Of a stretch of 22,331 nucleotides of DNA, positions 1 through 20,642 are shown in pieces. The DNA comes from a virus. Every line of letters starts with the position of its first letter. Position 1 is the stretch's first letter. The notes beneath the pieces were generated by a model that was given only the letters and a program-made list of their open reading frames with translations, did not search any database and was not told the DNA's origin. The stretch lies in the IMG/VR virus record IMGVR_UViG_3300024346_000565, positions 1 to 22,331 of that record. The stretch is one strand, 5' to 3'. The position numbers were made by a program, and so were the translations under genes.

Positions 1-680
1 GCATAGTCACTACCATTATAAGAGAGCACTTGATCATTAGCAGCAGTAGAAGTATTTAAATGAGTATCTACATCACTATCAGCATACGCTGCAGGAATAA
101 CAGTATCACCAGCCAGTGCTGTAGTTGAACTAGTTCCTAATGTCAAAGCATCAGTAATACCGTAGCCTGCAATAGTAGTAGGAGTACTAGTTAAGTCACC
201 AAATGCTATTGATGACACAGACCCCGCACTAACCCAAGCATAGTCACTACCATTATAAGAGAGCACTTGATCATTAGCAGCAGTAGAAGTATTTAAATGA
301 GTATCTACATCACTATCAGCATACGCTGCAGGAATAACAGTATCACCAGCCAGTGCTGTAGTTGCTGTAGTTCCTAATGTCAAAGCATCAGTAATACCGT
401 AGCCTGCAATAGTAGTAGGAGTACTAGTTAAGTCACTAAATTCCATTCCGATAGAGGCTACAGTAGTCCAATTATAGTCACTACCATTGTAAGAGAGCAC
501 TTCATCATTAGCAGCAGTAGAAGTATTTAAATGAGTATCTACATCACTATCAGCATACGCTGCAGGAATAACAGTATCACCAGCGAGCGCTGTAGTTGCT
601 GTAGTTCCTAATGTCAAAGCATCAGTAATACCGTAGCCTGCAATAGTAGTAGGAGTATTTGAAAGATCCGCCCAGCTACC
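1..680 (-). repeat. Three near-identical 234-237 bp in-frame fibre repeats
   Basis: The same block recurs with equivalent positions at 4, 241 and 475, so the spacings are 237 and 234 bp (79 and 78 codons). About 190 bp of each unit is nearly identical, including synonymous sites; the rest is a variable linker of about 45 bp. Each unit encodes a TIAGYGITDA ... SDVDTHLNTSTAANDxVLSYNGSDY module. The copy nearest the left edge is cut by the window, so further copies may lie outside. Confidence 0.95.
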
Positions 681-2348
681 GGACATTGCAATATCTGCAA
701 AGCCTGCACCTACTTTAGTTTTATTGTGCCACTTATCGTCTGCTTCTTGGTATACAAGCAAATCGCCTTGCGCAGGATCAGCAATACTTATGTCAATTAA
801 GTTGCTTAAAGAAAATTGTGCTGGGGCATACTGACTACTACTGGTATCATAAATTAACACGTCATTATCAGAAGCTGCGCTATTAGAAACGTCATTTAAT
901 TCTGTGGTTACATGATCTACTGGTTGATACTCGCTTGCAGTAGAATCATATTTTAGTATTTGATTATCAGAAGCTGAGGTATTAGAAACGTCATTTAATT
1001 CTGTGGTTACATGATCTACTGGTTGGTATTCGCTTGCAGTAGAATCATACTTTAGTATTTGATTATCAGAAGCTCCGGTATTAGAAACGTCGTTTAATTC
1101 TGTGCTTACATGATCTACAAAAGAAAGAGGGCTAGTAGGTGATGTGGTCTGTTTAAGAATGTACCCTTGTGTGGCTCCAGAAACAGTTAAGTTATCTACC
1201 TCTAGGTCTACAGTGCTTAAAGCTTGAGTATATAATTTCTGCCACCTTAAATCCGTGGAGCCTAGATCATGAGTATTATGTGCACTTGGTATAAAGTCGC
1301 TAGATGCTCTAGCAGTAAAGGCTATAGTATCACTAGTAGCATTACCTATCTGCACGTTACCTTTTAAATTTGTACTCCCCTCCACGACCAAATTACCGTT
1401 AGAGTCTGAGGTAAGATTGCCGGAGCCTATATCTAGACTAGCACCCTCAAGGGCTCCTGCGGCAGTGATATCTACAGTAGCGTCTATGCTTCCTGTGACT
1501 GTAAGATCTCCGGTTATGTCCAACCCTTTGTTTAAGTTCCATCTATCTCCCGAGGCTGTATAAGTAATAGTAGCATTTGCACCTTCAAGAGTGATACCGC
1601 CTCCATCAGCAGCCGCAGCATTGGCTGCACCGTCTGCAAGTACAATATTTATATCATCTACAGTCATTTCTGTACTGTTGACAGTAGTGGTAGTTCCGTC
1701 TACTTGCAAACTCCCGGCAATAACAACAAGACCTGTATTGTTTCCTACGCCCGCAGGATCTATTGTAAGAGTAGAGGGCCCTGATACAGTGCCTCCTGCT
1801 ACTTCTAAATTTCCTCCAATAGTTACTTCTCCGGTATTATCTCCATGAGCAGCTGGATCAATTAAAAGGTCTGAGGGGCCTTGTATAGTGCCCCCTGCCA
1901 CTTCCAAATTACCTGCAATAATTACTTCTCCGGTATTATCGCCATGAGTAGCTGGATCAATAACAAAAGCTGAGGGCCCCCGTAAATAACCTCTAAGCTC
2001 TAAATTATTCATTTTAGAGTTTATTTCTTGGCCGTCCCAATTAAACGTATCACCGTTCGGATCTCCAATTGCTACTTTATAATAGAGGTCTGTGTCTCCG
2101 TCTCCTCCCAGCCAAAAGCCGCTACCAACATCGTAAGAAGTTTTCCCACCTTTAATAGACCCCTGTCCTAAAAAGGTAATCCCTCCATCAACTTGATCTA
2201 TTATAATACCTTGATTTAGAGCTTCTTGAACATTTTGAAAAGACCCGCCAGACCCTGTACCTCCTGCTATAGGGCCCGGACCTATTCCTGGCCCCCCATT
2301 AAAGGGGCGAACATCTAACCAAACTTCTGCTACTACTTTACCTGCCAT
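1..2348 (-). CDS. Tail fibre protein, repeat-rich (partial, C-terminus beyond window)
   Basis: An uninterrupted reading frame runs from ATG at 2348-2346 to the left edge, giving 782 visible codons and no stop. The start overlaps the stop of the hub gene by one base (TAATG), with a purine-rich GGGGAAG just upstream. Residues ~55-105 carry the FWLGGDGD...KVAIGDPNGDTFNWDG pattern often seen at the start of phage fibre or tip C-terminal regions. Three 33-aa beta-rich repeats follow, then TTTTVNSTEMTVDDINIVL, a motif common in marine phage structural proteins, then three more 33-aa repeats of a different kind, and last three 78-79-aa repeats each containing TIAGYGITDA, a widespread tail-fibre motif. 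Composition is rich in Thr, Ser, Ala and Asp with almost no Cys. The likely role is a trimeric fibre at the tail tip that contacts the host surface. The receptor-binding end is not in the window. Fibre identity is fairly sure; its exact position on the virion is inferred. Confidence 0.85.
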   Translation of the reverse strand, partial: MAGKVVAEVWLDVRPFNGGPGIGPGPIAGGTGSGGSFQNVQEALNQGIIIDQVDGGITFLGQGSIKGGKTSYDVGSGFWLGGDGDTDLYYKVAIGDPNGDTFNWDGQEINSKMNNLELRGYLRGPSAFVIDPATHGDNTGEVIIAGNLEVAGGTIQGPSDLLIDPAAHGDNTGEVTIGGNLEVAGGTVSGPSTLTIDPAGVGNNTGLVVIAGSLQVDGTTTTVNSTEMTVDDINIVLADGAANAAAADGGGITLEGANATITYTASGDRWNLNKGLDITGDLTVTGSIDATVDITAAGALEGASLDIGSGNLTSDSNGNLVVEGSTNLKGNVQIGNATSDTIAFTARASSDFIPSAHNTHDLGSTDLRWQKLYTQALSTVDLEVDNLTVSGATQGYILKQTTSPTSPLSFVDHVSTELNDVSNTGASDNQILKYDSTASEYQPVDHVTTELNDVSNTSASDNQILKYDSTASEYQPVDHVTTELNDVSNSAASDNDVLIYDTSSSQYAPAQFSLSNLIDISIADPAQGDLLVYQEADDKWHNKTKVGAGFADIAMSGSWADLSNTPTTIAGYGITDALTLGTTATTALAGDTVIPAAYADSDVDTHLNTSTAANDEVLSYNGSDYNWTTVASIGMEFSDLTSTPTTIAGYGITDALTLGTTATTALAGDTVIPAAYADSDVDTHLNTSTAANDQVLSYNGSDYAWVSAGSVSSIAFGDLTSTPTTIAGYGITDALTLGTSSTTALAGDTVIPAAYADSDVDTHLNTSTAANDQVLSYNGSDY
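822..1118 (-). repeat. Three tandem 99-bp (33-codon) fibre repeats
   Basis: Units run 1118-1020, 1019-921 and 920-822 in reading order. Each encodes VDHV(S/T)TELNDVSN...ASDN..L.YD followed by a short Ser/Tyr-rich tail. The first two are almost identical in DNA; the third has drifted in its second half. All are in frame with the fibre and probably form a repeated shaft segment. Confidence 0.95.
1683..1979 (-). repeat. Three tandem 99-bp beta-rich fibre repeats
   Basis: Units start at 1979, 1880 and 1781 in reading order, exactly 99 bp apart. Each encodes GPS...IDPA..G(D/N)NTG.V.I.G.L.V.G, a short-strand, glycine-turn pattern consistent with a triangular beta-helix shaft. The third unit leads directly into the TTTTVNST motif. 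The sequence is unrelated to the other 99-bp array at 822-1118. Confidence 0.92.
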
Positions 2349-14290: not shown

Positions 14291-15232
14291 TTATATAGTG
14301 TTATATTGTAAAATACTACTTAACGTAGTGTTATCTGTAAGTCTCCAATCAAAGGCTTGACTATACAGTTCTGCAGGGGAGACCCTATTCGTGAACGAAA
14401 CAGTAGGCATATTAAAGTCTAGTCCAGCAAAGCTTCCTGAGTAGTCCTTGCCTGCTTCTATTCGTAAAGTTGAGGAAGGGCTAAAGTTCATAAAACTGCT
14501 ATCTGACCCATCCTCTAAATATCTTCTTATATTTCCAGAAAATATTTTTTTATCTACAGTGAACCCACTAGGGTACATTGCATTCGAGCTGTTAGTTACG
14601 CTCAATCCTTGGTGTATTGTATCATACCCCGTCCAGCTAATGTCATTTTGCATTTCTGCTGATATGCCAAAGACGCCTTCAGTAATATTAGTATTATCTA
14701 ATCGTACTGTAACGTCAGGAATAAGTATAGTAGGGGAGCTAGGATGGCTAGTGTAACTTTCTGACAGTGTAGCAATAAAGTTATTAAATGTAGTCTGAGG
14801 TAGCTGATTAGTATTATTTGAAGCAATTCTGATAAGTCTTTCAGCTTCACCTTCTAGCTCTAGTTTCATCAGACTGTTTCTATTAATTTGAAACGATCCT
14901 GAAGCTAGAACTGCGTTTTGAAGTCTAAAAATACTTTCATCTGCCACAAAGTACAAGTCAAATGTATCACACTCTATTAATCTGTCAAATAAAACGCTTG
15001 CGCCGGTACTCTCTTTATAAATATTCACAGTAAAAGAAAAAGATGCTGGATTTGCTTTAACAATCGTTGATCTTTCGAAGTACTGTGGAGAGTGTATGGT
15101 GTTTACAGACTGAGTCATCTCTGTAAAAGTTTGTGAGAAAGAAATTTCCTGTTCTGGCATAATCTCATGAACACTAATGCCCGGCCTAACCAAAGCCAGT
15201 TTGGTATTCTTCTTAAAATTAAAAGCCGGCAT
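14291..15232 (-). CDS. Second tail-tube-like protein, 313 aa
   Basis: A beta-rich protein without signal peptide or membrane segment. It shares an ordered set of motifs with the 386-aa tube protein just upstream: an early SFSQ...TE(V/M)T stretch, then F(D/N)LYFV followed by I(F/Y)(R/K).xNAV..S.S and a hydrophobic strand pair ending in (A/G)(E/T)LI, here at ~90-135. The C-terminal half also shows a shared IS...I(S/T)...NI(R/S) strand order. I infer a paralogous tail-tube fold. It may be a second ring type in the tube, a minor tube-tip or collar ring, or an assembly variant. The ATG at 15232 has AGGAG seven bases upstream and its own promoter at 15256-15284, after a terminator that closes the first tube gene. 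The next gene follows after 14 bp. Confidence 0.65.
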   Translation of the reverse strand: MPAFNFKKNTKLALVRPGISVHEIMPEQEISFSQTFTEMTQSVNTIHSPQYFERSTIVKANPASFSFTVNIYKESTGASVLFDRLIECDTFDLYFVADESIFRLQNAVLASGSFQINRNSLMKLELEGEAERLIRIASNNTNQLPQTTFNNFIATLSESYTSHPSSPTILIPDVTVRLDNTNITEGVFGISAEMQNDISWTGYDTIHQGLSVTNSSNAMYPSGFTVDKKIFSGNIRRYLEDGSDSSFMNFSPSSTLRIEAGKDYSGSFAGLDFNMPTVSFTNRVSPAELYSQAFDWRLTDNTTLSSILQYNTI

Positions 15233-15353: not shown

Positions 15354-16514
15354 TTACGAGTTGTGGTACTCTAAAGTAGCTTCGTTAGTTTCATCAAGAT
15401 CTCCGGGAAGTGCGTGGAAATTTACCTCTAGACTAATAACGTCTTCGATTGAGTGCGTAGGAATCTCTAAGTGTGCGGTAGGTACATTTACCACAACTTT
15501 AGGTGCGGCGCCTCCTCCAATAGAAAAGGTTAAATCTGCACTGTTCGTAACAACGCCAGTACCTGAAGCAAGATCATCAAATAAATCCGCACTTGTACCT
15601 GCACCACTCACGGTGTCCCCTGCATTCAAGTAGCAAGTAAAGCTTCCAGAGATATTTCGAGTACCTGTAACATTACCAATAGGTTGATTAACTACACAAA
15701 GCTCTTCAGGCGTTAAGAAAGTGATATTGTTTTCAAAACTAATATTTCCGCCTGTTAGTGTTAGCTCATACGACGTTTCAGCAAAGGGCGCCACCGGGCC
15801 CGCAGTAGCTACGCCTAAAGTAGTAAGGCGGTTTCGAATAAAGTTAGCCTCACTGTGAGCAATACCATCGCTAATAATCTTAGTATCCCATGTAGGTGAA
15901 ATAACTGGCATAGCGGCTTCTTCTGAAATTAAAGTACCTAATCCACTCCAATCAAGAGTAAGAATACCATCAATATCAAAGTCCATTGATACAGAGTTAC
16001 ATACGGCATTTGCAACTTTATAGATTGTTTGAGGGTTGCCTGGCCCTGCGTTATAAGCACTAGCGGCCGTGCCGCAAGCACCCAGTACGAAGTACAGATT
16101 AAAAGTTTCAAGAGCCGCTACGTTGCTTGAATCAAAGTCAATGTCCATATGAGCTGCTGTACCTTTGTCCACGCCATTTGTGAATAATCGTGTACTGTGG
16201 TCATAAGCACCTGCATTAACAAAGTTAGCCCAAAAAACTTCATCAGTACTTCCAGAAACAGCAGGGCTCGTAACATCATAGGGACGAGCATACATCTGCA
16301 AGTTCCACTCTGCTGGCTCAAAAGCGTCAGTAAACAGTTTTCGTCCACGACGGGAGCTGTTATTTGCCCCAGCCATTTCCGAAAGAGTAACTTCTGTTGT
16401 TGCGTTTGATTGTGAAAAAGAAAATCCGTCTAGTACGGGAACTTTCCAAAAGTAACCATCCTTCTCCGCATAGACGTGCGTATCTCTAGCTAGTTGTAAT
16501 TGTGGTGCTGGCAT
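15354..16514 (-). CDS. Major tail-tube protein, 386 aa
   Basis: This is probably the repeated ring subunit of the tail tube. It begins MPAPQLQLARDTHVYAEKDGYFWKVPVLDGFSFSQSNATTEVTLSE, a beta-strand opening typical of tube proteins, has FNLYFV near residue 137, and is beta-rich throughout. The C-terminal ~90 aa (HLEIPTHSIEDVISLEVNFHALPGDLD) ends in a strand common in such subunits. It follows the tail-terminator gene, as expected. The ATG has AGGAGA seven bases upstream, and the gene ends at a strong terminator, so it can be expressed at a high level separately from the genes beyond. I chose this copy as the major tube protein because of that signal and its position next to the terminator; the 313-aa paralogue could share the role. 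Confidence 0.78.
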   Translation of the reverse strand: MPAPQLQLARDTHVYAEKDGYFWKVPVLDGFSFSQSNATTEVTLSEMAGANNSSRRGRKLFTDAFEPAEWNLQMYARPYDVTSPAVSGSTDEVFWANFVNAGAYDHSTRLFTNGVDKGTAAHMDIDFDSSNVAALETFNLYFVLGACGTAASAYNAGPGNPQTIYKVANAVCNSVSMDFDIDGILTLDWSGLGTLISEEAAMPVISPTWDTKIISDGIAHSEANFIRNRLTTLGVATAGPVAPFAETSYELTLTGGNISFENNITFLTPEELCVVNQPIGNVTGTRNISGSFTCYLNAGDTVSGAGTSADLFDDLASGTGVVTNSADLTFSIGGGAAPKVVVNVPTAHLEIPTHSIEDVISLEVNFHALPGDLDETNEATLEYHNS

Positions 16515-16580: not shown

Positions 16581-19235
16581 TTAGTAATGAACCTGTACTA
16601 GAATCTCTCCGACTCCATATGGCTCAAGTACTCCTTCGTCAGTTTCTATACTGACTATTTTAATGTCAATTGTTTTTTGAGCAACCCCTTGCTTATCTGT
16701 ATAAGACAATTGGCCTTGCTCATCTAGTATTGTTTCTGCGTCTTCAAGTAGCTTATCCAACGCCAGTGCTGCATCTTCCTCTTGTACATAACATCTAAGC
16801 GTTATAGTTAGATATCTGTCTCGGTACCCTGCAGCTTGGTACTCTCTAGTTTCAGATCCTGCATTTAAATGAATTGCAGGAAACTCTTCTATTTCGTCCC
16901 AAAACTTTAATCTTGGATGCACATTATTAAATACATCTGTTAAAAAATCTGCACTTCCATCAATTTTTTTAAGTTCCCTGACTAACGCCTCTACAATAGA
17001 AGAGCGTCTAGTAGTATGAGGTCTTCCTACATATGTTGTAGGAGTTCCACTACTTGAAGAAGACGCTGGAGGCGCTGGAGGGGCTGCAGCAATTGTAAAG
17101 CTAGAACTTGCTACAACAGTACCCGTGGCACTCCCACTTCTAATTGTTAAGTTTCCTTGTGTAGCAGTGCTTGAAACAGCAGTTAAAGTAAAAGAACCTG
17201 TATTTGATGTTATAGTAACTTGCCCCGAAGCAACATTTGTTGTTTGAAAGCTGGTGGTTGGAGTAGCCTCCCAATATAAAATTGTTCCATCTGCAACATT
17301 TGTTGTTGTTATTGTAACAGTTGTTGGTGTTCCTACCGTTAGAGTAGTACTAGGTAAAGAAATAGAATAACTTGGAGGTACTGTATTATACTGCTGATAG
17401 GCCATTCTGTTGGGGCCTCCCATCAGACCACCTCCAGCAGCAGGCAGGTGGCTTCTCCACCCTATGTTTGGTACTCCAGCAAATGAAATTCCATCTATGT
17501 AAGCAGGGTCGTCTGGGTACCCCTCTTGAATAGCGTCCTCTATAGTAGCGTTATTAGATGAAGTTTCTACAAAAGTTTTTAGCTGTGCCGGAGTTAGTCC
17601 GGGATTTTTTTCTAAAATACAAGATAAAATTCCCACAACTCCAGGAGCCGCCATCGAAGTACCACTTAATTTAAGTAAACCTTCCGTAGCGTCTAGGGGG
17701 TGCGTTATCTCTGTAGCCCCCTGACCAATCATTTTATTTTCTGGAATTGTTCGAGACGGGTCCGTCGTATGCACATAAGGGCCACTCCTGCTGGAGGCTC
17801 CTAGTATCTGAGATCCGGGGTGCCACAATGAAACTCCCGGGCCTCTTCCAGAACTAGCGGCTATACCTATCTTTTTAGGCCCTGAAGGCGCTCCTGTATC
17901 TCCTACTTGAAAAGTATTTCTGTAATCTAAATTTAGATTACCAACTATAAAAGCTTCGGGATGGTGTACTCCGCCTCTGTGCAGATAGTGAGTGCCTGAA
18001 GTTAAACCAGGCCAAGGAGTTCCTGGCGCAGGGCTGGGTGTTGCAAAAGTAATTGTATTATTCCAATCAACATGAGTGTCATGTGCAATATACTCATTGG
18101 TATTACCTGCTGATATAACTACATGGACTCCTTCATCAATTAACTCTTCTATATCTGCTACAATCGAGGCTGAGTACGCGGGAATCTTAGAAGTGATGTA
18201 AGAATAGTTGGTGCCCCCTGAAACTGCAGTATCACTATTTATATAAGAGGCAGAAATTCCATAATGTAGATTTCTATGAGTATGATCCTGCAGTACATCA
18301 TTATTTGGCCGTAAATCTGCTGCCGAAGAGTATACACTACCTCTATAGTTAACTGAACTAATATAGTCAGACCTGATTGTATAAGTAGAGCCCCAGCTCA
18401 TATTTACAATAGTAGGCCGCTTATTTCCATTGGAGTCTACAGCTTTATTCCTATGAAATATTTTTATTTGATCGAAACAATCTGTATAAGCAGTATAATC
18501 TTGTAAGCCTCCGAACTGTGGTAACATAGCTCCAAATTGAAGCTTTTGAGCATAAATTTGAGCTCCTCTAGCGTAGCCCATACTTTTACCAGCGGCAGTA
18601 CTTGCTACATGAGTTCCGTGACCCTCCCAATCTCTGTAGTAATCATTAAGGTTAGAAGGGCTTGTACCTATTCCAGTTGTAGTTGCCCAATCAATTTTAT
18701 TAACTCTACTTATGCCATTTGCATCTTGAAACTCATAGTGCTCTGCATCTATTCCGGTATCTTGAATAACTATATCTACACCTTCGCCGTCAGCACCATA
18801 AGCATAAACACCAGTGTAATTATTAGTAAAGGTGCCATCGGATTGTACATTCCAAGGTTCTGCTTTATTTGTTATCCCTCCTGATTGAGGAAACTGCCAA
18901 GGGTACCCTTCCCCTGCACTAAATTCTACTATCTGTCCGTATTTTCTATAAGTTCTTTCAGGGTCCGCTCCTACACCTGAAGGGCCTATCTCTATATCAG
19001 GATTTTGCCAGTATGGAATTTCAACTGCGAGTACGTCTGGGTGAGGCCGCAAAACATGTGCCTCTAGCTCAGTCAAATAATAATTAGCCTGTCTAGTACT
19101 AGCAGGCCTTTCATTTGCTACTTCTACTTGGCGATTAGGAATTCCATCCTCGCCTTGAAAGTCAACCATTCGTTCATGAAATTGATGAAAATCAACTCCT
19201 TTATTGAGAACGACTATATACTCTTTTTCAGACAC
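16581..19235 (-). CDS. Subtilisin-like (S8) protease fused to Ig-like and tail-terminator domains, 884 aa
   Basis: Four parts can be read. Residues 1-~82 resemble the I9 subtilase propeptide (EYIVVL at the start, ELEAHVLRPHPDVLAVEIP at its end). Residues ~150-590 are a full S8 catalytic domain with Asp159 (QDTGID), His206 (GHGTHVAST), oxyanion Asn378 (ISAGN) and Ser527 (SGTSMAAPG), so it should be active. Residues ~620-718 are an Ig-like phage domain (TTNVADGTILYWEA...). A Pro/Ala/Ser linker leads to ~740-884, which looks like a stand-alone siphophage tail terminator (LVRELKKIDG...NVHPRLKFWDE...YLTITLRCYVQEEDAALALDKLLEDAE...PYGVGEILVQV). No signal peptide is seen. The terminator part fits its place between the neck and tube genes. 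The start is GTG at 19235, directly after the previous stop, with AGGAG seven bases upstream. The protease may process phage proteins, autocleave, or decorate the collar. The protease assignment is very sure, the terminator domain fairly sure. Confidence 0.88.
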   Translation of the reverse strand: MSEKEYIVVLNKGVDFHQFHERMVDFQGEDGIPNRQVEVANERPASTRQANYYLTELEAHVLRPHPDVLAVEIPYWQNPDIEIGPSGVGADPERTYRKYGQIVEFSAGEGYPWQFPQSGGITNKAEPWNVQSDGTFTNNYTGVYAYGADGEGVDIVIQDTGIDAEHYEFQDANGISRVNKIDWATTTGIGTSPSNLNDYYRDWEGHGTHVASTAAGKSMGYARGAQIYAQKLQFGAMLPQFGGLQDYTAYTDCFDQIKIFHRNKAVDSNGNKRPTIVNMSWGSTYTIRSDYISSVNYRGSVYSSAADLRPNNDVLQDHTHRNLHYGISASYINSDTAVSGGTNYSYITSKIPAYSASIVADIEELIDEGVHVVISAGNTNEYIAHDTHVDWNNTITFATPSPAPGTPWPGLTSGTHYLHRGGVHHPEAFIVGNLNLDYRNTFQVGDTGAPSGPKKIGIAASSGRGPGVSLWHPGSQILGASSRSGPYVHTTDPSRTIPENKMIGQGATEITHPLDATEGLLKLSGTSMAAPGVVGILSCILEKNPGLTPAQLKTFVETSSNNATIEDAIQEGYPDDPAYIDGISFAGVPNIGWRSHLPAAGGGLMGGPNRMAYQQYNTVPPSYSISLPSTTLTVGTPTTVTITTTNVADGTILYWEATPTTSFQTTNVASGQVTITSNTGSFTLTAVSSTATQGNLTIRSGSATGTVVASSSFTIAAAPPAPPASSSSSGTPTTYVGRPHTTRRSSIVEALVRELKKIDGSADFLTDVFNNVHPRLKFWDEIEEFPAIHLNAGSETREYQAAGYRDRYLTITLRCYVQEEDAALALDKLLEDAETILDEQGQLSYTDKQGVAQKTIDIKIVSIETDEGVLEPYGVGEILVQVHY
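17421..17435 (-). promoter_or_regulatory. Possible internal ribosome site and start inside the protease gene
   Basis: At codon 605 an in-frame ATG (17423-17421) is preceded by GGAGGT six bases upstream (17435-17430). Starting here would give a 280-aa product made only of the Ig-like and terminator-like domains. The GGAGGT comes from Gly codons, so it may be accidental, but it falls exactly in the linker between protease and structural parts. Confidence 0.4.
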
Positions 19236-20642
19236 TTACACTCTCCTAGTATAAAATCTTCCAATAGCAAACTGAACGGCTATTTCTCTGATTGACTTAT
19301 CAATTAATTTTCGTGGGTCTCGTTCTACGGATCCTTGAGCATTTCCTGGCTCAAATGTTTCGTAAGGATATCTCATATAGGTATACCCAATACTAGGAAA
19401 TCCTTGCGCAGTTTGAGTAATCTCGGTAACTCTAGTACTTGCTGCAAATCTTCCCGATTGGTACTGTAAAGCAGGGGAGATCATATTTCTAGCCACAGCT
19501 CCAGGAAGTTGTTGATTGAAAATACCTATGTAACTTGCTATAGAATAAGGAGATTTTTTAGGCTTTTCTCCTTTTCTTAAAGAAGATAACCCCGCTACTT
19601 TAACGGTAGAAGGAGACTTCCCTTTTTTACCTGTGCTTCTTTTCTTTTTCGATACTGTTGAGGTGCTATGCTTTATATTTATATCTTCTGTTTTTACGTT
19701 TACACCTGCTATTTTTTTAAAAGGTTTTGTTACTTTTGATACTGTTTGTTTTCTCTTTATAGTTTTTAAGCTGTCAGAGCCTTCTAAGTCTGCTATAGTA
19801 TTCAACATACTTGGATTATTTATTAATTTTTTAAGTCGCTTTCTAGCATCTTCGAGTTTTTTCTTCATCTGATTTCCAGCTAGAATATTTCCACCAGCGC
19901 CTATAAGACTAATATTTTGAGTCATATCACTAGTGCTTCTCATAAAACTTAAATCAACACCCATTTTATTTAAGTCTGATAATAACTCTTGTTCGGTTGA
20001 GACATTTCCTGTTTTAGCATTAAATACCGTGCTGGCATGTTTGTCAAAAAACTCACGAGTCATTGTTTCTACGATACCCTCTCCCTCTGCGTGCCCAGAG
20101 TGCCCCATTCTACCTTTTGTAGGAGTATCTAAATCTTCTTTAAATCTGTAGTTTCTATCAAAAGACTCTCTGCCTTTAGTGCCTTCTTTAAGCATCCTTC
20201 TAAGGCCAAAGAAGAAGTTCCTGTACGAATTTGAGTAAGAAACTTTTATTTTATCAAAAACATCAGCCTGTCCTTGAGCCCAGCCATTAGGAGTCTTACC
20301 TGTACGTATATCTGTAGTAAATACAAATGAAAAAGACTTGGAGCCTCCTTTAAGTCGCGTTATACCGCTTTTTGCTTCTGCAACTTGATTTAGGGCTACT
20401 ATATCTTTATATAGACTAGTTGAAAAAAGCTCTGCAAGACGCTGTATTTCAGACTTTCTATCCGAACTGAGTTTTATGCTTTTAGACTGTAACTCGCTTT
20501 CCATTTCCCTCACAAAAATACTTTCATCATAACTAAATGTATGAGTTAGTAGATTATACTCTAATCGTTTTTGTTTGGGCGTTGTACGCTCAAATTCTTT
20601 ATCCAACTTCGTTAAAAATGATAGTAAACTTGCAGTACTCAC
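19236..20642 (-). CDS. Neck / head-closure candidate, lysine-rich, 468 aa
   Basis: I do not recognise the family firmly. By order (capsid, connector, this gene, tail terminator) it occupies the slot of the head-closure or HK97 gp10-like neck protein. The N-terminal ~250 aa are mixed helix with charged segments and an odd MGHSGHAEGEG patch at ~179-188. Residues ~258-365 are very basic, with runs such as KKKLEDARKRLKK and SKKKRSTGKKGK, and look disordered or nucleic-acid binding. The last ~95 aa (IFNQQLPGAVARNMISPALQYQSGRFAASTRV ... DKSIREIAVQFAIGRFYTRRV) form a distinct basic module that may be the conserved neck domain. The start is GTG at 20642, sharing one base with the upstream stop (TAGTG), so translation is coupled; the protease start follows its own stop without a gap. 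The role is from context. Confidence 0.55.
   Translation of the reverse strand: MSTASLLSFLTKLDKEFERTTPKQKRLEYNLLTHTFSYDESIFVREMESELQSKSIKLSSDRKSEIQRLAELFSTSLYKDIVALNQVAEAKSGITRLKGGSKSFSFVFTTDIRTGKTPNGWAQGQADVFDKIKVSYSNSYRNFFFGLRRMLKEGTKGRESFDRNYRFKEDLDTPTKGRMGHSGHAEGEGIVETMTREFFDKHASTVFNAKTGNVSTEQELLSDLNKMGVDLSFMRSTSDMTQNISLIGAGGNILAGNQMKKKLEDARKRLKKLINNPSMLNTIADLEGSDSLKTIKRKQTVSKVTKPFKKIAGVNVKTEDINIKHSTSTVSKKKRSTGKKGKSPSTVKVAGLSSLRKGEKPKKSPYSIASYIGIFNQQLPGAVARNMISPALQYQSGRFAASTRVTEITQTAQGFPSIGYTYMRYPYETFEPGNAQGSVERDPRKLIDKSIREIAVQFAIGRFYTRRV

Follow-up and report, generated by a model that had tools for sequence, protein, structure and literature searches.

A subtilisin-like protease and a phage tail terminator are almost certainly joined in a single gene of the window, i.e. 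the whole 22,331-nt stretch of DNA analysed here, which is a 22.3-kb fragment represented by a single metagenomic contig. A reading made from the sequence alone had claimed one unbroken frame at this site, and the gene indeed encodes 884 aa in one frame; independent searches and models likewise confirmed the proposed order of domains, with a propeptide followed by a subtilase, a spacer and a terminator (Table 1). Both halves are ordinary members of their families; what is new is above all the origin of their fusion.

Table 1 Features of the fusion gene and its neighbours (window coordinates).
Feature	Position	Strand	Basis
Fusion gene, 884 aa	16581..19235 (19235→16581)	minus	one open frame; GTG start, ribosome-binding site AGGAGAG
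I9-type propeptide (inhibitor/chaperone), residues 1-84	18984..19235	minus	AlphaFold model and alignment to ProN-Tk-SP
Disordered connector, residues 85-108; putative region of propeptide autocleavage	18912..18983	minus	low pLDDT
S8 catalytic domain, proteinase K/aqualysin type, residues 109-616	17388..18911	minus	Pfam S8 and structure alignment
Catalytic Asp159	18759..18761	minus	invariant 46/46
Catalytic His206	18618..18620	minus	invariant 46/46
Oxyanion-hole Asn378	18102..18104	minus	invariant 46/46
Catalytic Ser527 (GTSMA)	17655..17657	minus	invariant 46/46
mRNA hairpin where the protease domain ends, the most stable in the gene	17380..17460	minus	folding energy
ATG605, candidate internal start; strong GGAGGTGG motif upstream, paired in the hairpin	17421-17423	minus	ribosome-binding-site prediction
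Beta-rich Ig-like spacer (putative), residues 617-716	17088..17387	minus	low-confidence model beta-strands
Pro/Ser-rich linker, residues 717-741; contains the 3′ boundary of the cassette	17013..17087	minus	pLDDT and drop in identity to L002
Tail terminator, T5 p142 type, residues 742-884	16584..17012	minus	Pfam, T5 p142 sequence match, Foldseek
Upstream neighbour, 468-aa protein, T5 p143-like tail completion/neck	19236..20642	minus	residues 391-433, weak, below the Pfam cut-off
Downstream neighbour, major tail (tube) protein, phrog_3575	15354..16514	minus	PHROGs
Baseplate tube protein, T5 p140 type	14291..15232	minus	Pfam and PHROGs

The join recurs outside the window. In contigs L003 and L004, which come from two other metagenomes, an intact fusion homologue of 985 aa has two copies of the spacer and a protease about 76% identical to that of the window. 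A further contig, L002, harbors the same fusion, interrupted by a single TAG in frame at residue 550 (near L002 position 9648); the window codon at this site is CAG. Other genes in the 18.6-kb L002 locus were seen to end in TAA or TGA. With one TAG in one gene only, a recent mutation or a sequencing error is a better explanation than a recoded or suppressed stop codon. The suspicion that a sequencing error near 17.4 kb, or the assembly, had joined two genes draws on the window being a single contig; with the intact join in L003 and L004, and in L002 apart from its TAG, we reject an artefact as vanishingly improbable. The collections that we searched yielded the fusion in the window and in these three related contigs only. 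No GenBank phage record covers 80% of it, and among the listed matches in predicted viral structures, each corresponded to the protease or the terminator part only and none was named as a fusion. Among the open-access papers searched, none combined tail terminator, subtilisin and phage, and none combined peptidase S8, tail fiber and virion.

The C-terminal part (residues 735-884), previously likened to a tail terminator by size, position and pattern, matched T5 p142 in Pfam, PHROGs and Foldseek searches. Specifically, Phage_tail_terminator_7 (PF23818) aligned to residues 742-884 at 1.2e-33, the tail terminator family phrog_3907 at 1.7e-34 and T5 p142 itself, by sequence, at 9e-20. Modelled alone, the terminator reached a pLDDT of 86, with T5 p142 as its closest solved structure (8bcu; E 1.8e-13, TM 0.82, 35% identity). 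Its location at the head-tail joint was also borne out, as the gene lies between the p143-like neck gene and the tail tube gene. Judged from sequence, the order of genes (major capsid, head completion, p143-like neck, fusion, tube and p140-like baseplate tube, followed by two chaperone-like ORFs, the tape measure and large tail proteins) is that of the tail module of a T5-like siphophage. L008, a 48-kb relative whose terminator stands alone, encodes a D5-like regulator, a family A polymerase and an NAD-dependent ligase, consistent with T5 kinship. The source virus is a T5-related phage of aquatic bacteria. At the end of the contig, an incomplete fibre-like protein (3-2348, minus strand) contains several near-identical internal repeats. 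The neck protein is 468 aa long, compared to about 255 for T5 p143, with its p143 likeness confined to residues 391-433; at the DNA level its gene is mostly about 40% identical to that of L002 and about 80% at the 3′ end, the C-terminal anchor being conserved and the N-terminal region in front of it variable.

A separate terminator gene elsewhere, which would have spoken against the fusion serving as the terminator, was absent from the window and from L002, L003 and L004, all four of which are fragments rather than whole genomes. Codons 690-760 of the fusion contain no ATG, GTG or TTG, which led us to reject a separate terminator started near the linker. Given this, and given that it is the only terminator in the contig, the terminator would normally be made within a longer protein.

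For the protease part, Pfam matched Peptidase_S8 at residues 150-563 (2.9e-26), while the PHROGs match over residues 2-735, phrog_9158, is a family of unannotated function. An Asp-His-Ser triad in S8 order together with an oxyanion Asn places the enzyme in family S8. The same four residues that had been named from the sequence alone, Asp159, His206, Asn378 and Ser527, were unchanged in all 46 aligned relatives. Structure alignment with VIA matched residues 109-616 to aqualysin and proteinase K (Z 31-33), the best aqualysin alignment comprising 269 residues at 31% identity (Z 33.3), and ProteinT was matched as well. The I9-like propeptide proposed earlier gained support from the AlphaFold model, in which residues 1-84 adopt an I9-like fold of alternating strands and helices (pLDDT mostly >82), and from the VIA alignment of model residues 1-615 with ProN-Tk-SP, propeptide included; a Pfam I9 sequence match to the propeptide was not found. 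Residues 86-113 had a pLDDT <50, and residue 4 of mature aqualysin aligned at residue 109 of the fusion. The fusion protein has no apparent signal peptide, which suggests the enzyme to be made in the cytoplasm. Comparing the window with L003, dN/dS of the protease was ~0.2. Together with the invariant catalytic residues, this argues that the protease is maintained as a protein and is very likely active.

Between the two halves, the model shows beta-strands at low confidence over the spacer (residues 617-716), and a Pfam search returned sub-threshold matches only. The Ig-like domain proposed for this region is hence plausible as far as the region is beta-rich, but no Pfam Ig model matched. L003 and L004 homologues contain a second spacer copy. 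The linker that follows is long, Pro/Ser-rich and of pLDDT <50, and it is within the linker that nucleotide identity between the window and L002 drops from about 95% to about 80%.

This drop marks the edge of a cassette, and comparison of related contigs showed that the protease is gained and lost as such. Among the 80 relatives fetched, 77 have a stand-alone terminator, normally of 149-154 aa (one of these ORFs is open at the contig end), and in a protease profile search of 20 contigs L002, L003 and L004 were the sole matches; the protease was not found in any of the other 17 contigs searched, all with a stand-alone terminator and one of them 78.7 kb long. Terminators bearing the cassette have close stand-alone counterparts. 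Between L003 and L005, identity is 97.2% in the 5.6 kb upstream and 97.3% in the 0.6 kb downstream; what sets them apart is an insert of about 2.5 kb at the first codons of the terminator. For L002 and L006, the flanks match at 91% and 93.5%, with the cassette again as the difference. In these two near-matched pairs the cassette thus measures ~2.2-2.5 kb and is inserted at the terminator start codon. The cassettes of the window and L002 are ~95% identical overall (88-99% per 120-nt step), this high identity beginning ~80 nt before the end of the neck gene and lasting up to the linker. In contrast, identity is 78% for their terminators (55% when only third codon positions are compared) and about 40% for most of the upstream neck gene. 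Such near-identical cassettes on unlike terminators and flanks imply that the cassette moved between backbones.

Relatives of the protease are common in viral contigs: its profile matches at least 528 of them in IMG/VR, mostly as single genes of about 520 aa, as compared to four protease loci only in bacterial and archaeal genomes. Homology to relatives extends over the full length of propeptide and S8 domain (35-42% identity in the protease alignment; a combined alignment with the terminator was dropped because the proteases got spread across the terminator). The upstream neighbor is the tail fibre family phrog_9729 in 15 of 51 cases, and the downstream neighbor the baseplate wedge/tail fibre connector phrog_677 in 20 of 47. 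Named relatives belong to Synechococcus and Prochlorococcus phages, two of them adjoining baseplate wedge/tail pin genes, and some relatives have C-terminal lectin-like, copper-binding-like or other domains. The family, then, otherwise sits in tail-fibre/baseplate loci of cyanophage-like myoviruses; by sequence the fusion protease is a relative of this tail-fibre-locus S8 family, but it is encoded at the head-tail joint. For Synechococcus phage S-SCSM1, whose virion proteome was determined by mass spectrometry (PMC9602691), the homologue has virion protein as its annotation.

Several family loci were unusual. In L116 (5059-8776), L120 (5125-8731) and L123 (3924-7527), two different subtilase genes of the family lie adjacent to one another in tail-fibre-type loci. 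L125 (5998-12339) encodes a 2114-aa protein with an N-terminal protease and a 1609-aa extension (glycine-rich, with Reeler-like matches), and in L100 (7474-7932) a plastocyanin/azurin-like (copper-binding) domain follows the protease (E 1e-7). A 1180-aa protease relative with DUF7483 resides on a 335-kb contig filed as bacterial (Candidatus Neomarinimicrobiota PBPT01000016.1), which could be a prophage or a mis-binned phage.

With moderate confidence, we regard the fusion as an accessory virion-borne protease that moved from tail-fibre loci to the tail neck and acts extracellularly on host-surface or environmental protein, an extracellular function being in keeping with the tail-fibre habitat of the protease family. 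In subtilases, the propeptide keeps the enzyme inactive until self-cleavage. In this reading, the gene arose when a mobile cassette of propeptide, subtilase, Ig-like spacer and linker was inserted in-frame at the start codon of a T5-type terminator. Computation shows the fusion, its intact catalytic set, its folds and position, the gain and loss of the cassette and the tail-fibre habitat of the family, and from these we infer virion presence, copy number, autocleavage, activity and substrate of the protease. By homology, the terminator domain would be expected to form a hexameric ring that closes the tail tube where it meets the head, and up to six proteases could be tethered by this ring on the outside of the tube. 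Folding of the enzyme, and its silencing while in the cytoplasm, would fall to the propeptide, which would subsequently be removed by autocleavage at about residues 85-108. The mature protease may then serve as an optional surface tool that cuts host-envelope or surrounding protein during approach or adsorption, i.e. the same kind of job that its tail-fibre and baseplate relatives probably do. Of the functional guesses made from the sequence alone, those that would fit best are presentation on the collar or activity against host surface protein. More tentatively, and leaning slightly against it ourselves, the terminator could be a natural docking site for a swappable enzyme in some T5-related phages, where a cassette that enters and leaves at the start codon would create a hexameric protease collar, possibly tuned by mixing long and short subunits.

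What speaks against display is the interruption of the L002 protease by a stop codon and, above all, the terminator itself: the N-terminus of T5 p142 contributes to subunit contacts, and an N-terminal His-tag left the protein monomeric (PMC11784142), which makes it conceivable that a 735-aa N-terminal fusion interferes with formation of the ring, except if it is cut off or if shorter subunits are mixed in. Ways around this may be a linker of sufficient length, cleavage in the linker or such a mixture. Self-cleavage within residues 717-741 would free the protease for the infected cell or the lysate and leave a normal terminator behind, in keeping with the long, low-confidence, Pro/Ser-rich linker, the poor tolerance of the p142 N-terminus for additions and an enzyme made in the cytoplasm. 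Yet a separate gene would suffice for a free enzyme, as in most relatives, the fusion has been kept in three backbones with different terminators, and the spacer is retained and in L003 even duplicated, which suggests a tether; we therefore consider self-release unlikely. A shorter form, in turn, could arise by internal initiation. Upstream of the linker, the remaining candidate starts are ATG605 and ATG611, within a strong hairpin at the protease/spacer boundary (-39.6 kcal/mol versus a mean of -15.3; z -3.0), a weaker version of which is present in L003. An internal start may be masked by this hairpin, or ribosomes may be slowed there as they cross from one domain to the next. The ribosome-binding site of ATG605 was predicted to be the strongest of the 90 internal ATGs and 11 gene starts tested (-10.6 kcal/mol), and L003 has an equally strong predicted site at the same place. 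Two products, the full-length protease-terminator and a spacer-terminator started at Met605, would give mixed rings with fewer than six proteases, and the stop at residue 550 in L002 would leave the Met605 product only. However, the site lies within that hairpin, the gene's most stable one, the motif may merely reflect glycine codons and the L002 stop may be a sequencing error; initiation at ATG605 is possible but not favoured, and a two-product scheme seems rather improbable.

The protease is also positioned where, and at the point when, the tail is completed, and density attributed to the N-terminus of the T5 tape measure extends to the terminator (PMC11784142). It might thus be a maturation protease that cleaves a structural protein (e.g. 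tape measure, tube or neck) at tail capping, a role that had been guessed at as helping maturation. Because near-matched phages, with flanks 97% and 91-94% identical, lack the protease, a required role in assembly or maturation is disfavoured; its absence from all 17 other contigs searched and the tail-fibre-locus habitat of its relatives also weigh against this explanation, which we hold to be very unlikely.

Phage enzymes acting on the host surface usually reside on fibres, spikes or the tail tip and mostly cut sugars. If the accessory-protease reading is true, an active-looking protease on the tail-capping ring would be anchored at a new site, with a chemistry that is less common, and a bulky N-terminal addition would be tolerated where a small tag disturbed T5 p142. 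With the near-matched pairs L003/L005 and L002/L006, one member of each having the cassette and the other lacking it, what a virion protease does could be tested directly. That at least 528 viral contigs have a relative suggests such proteases to be widespread and little-studied in aquatic phage tails.

The C-terminal 143 aa of the fusion resemble T5 p142 (PF23818; PDB 8bcp, 8bcu, 9ilv) at 34-35% identity and a TM of 0.82, and p142 has gene neighbors of the same kind (p143-like, tube protein, p140-like); p142, however, is a 161-aa stand-alone protein, to which the fusion adds about 740 N-terminal residues including an enzyme. With the subtilases aqualysin I, proteinase K and Tk-SP it has the catalytic fold in common (Z about 30-33), and with ProN-Tk-SP the propeptide arrangement, yet these are secreted cellular enzymes without a structural anchor of this kind. 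Proteases of Synechococcus and Prochlorococcus myoviruses (e.g. S-CREM1, Sf-FR1, S-SCSM1) are homologous over the full length of propeptide and S8 domain (about 23-31% identity, tblastn) and have the same invariant catalytic residues, but mostly stand alone or are fused to lectin-like, Ig-like or other domains in tail-fibre/baseplate loci; a terminator fusion was not found among them. Finally, lactococcal 936 phages carry carbohydrate-binding and enzyme-like modules on their neck structures, and their neck passage structure proteins, like the fusion, place modular, swappable domains at the neck of a siphophage (PMC6669499). We regard this as a functional analogy; the neck passage structure is a separate collar protein rather than the tail terminator, and its modules target carbohydrate instead of protein (PMC6669499).
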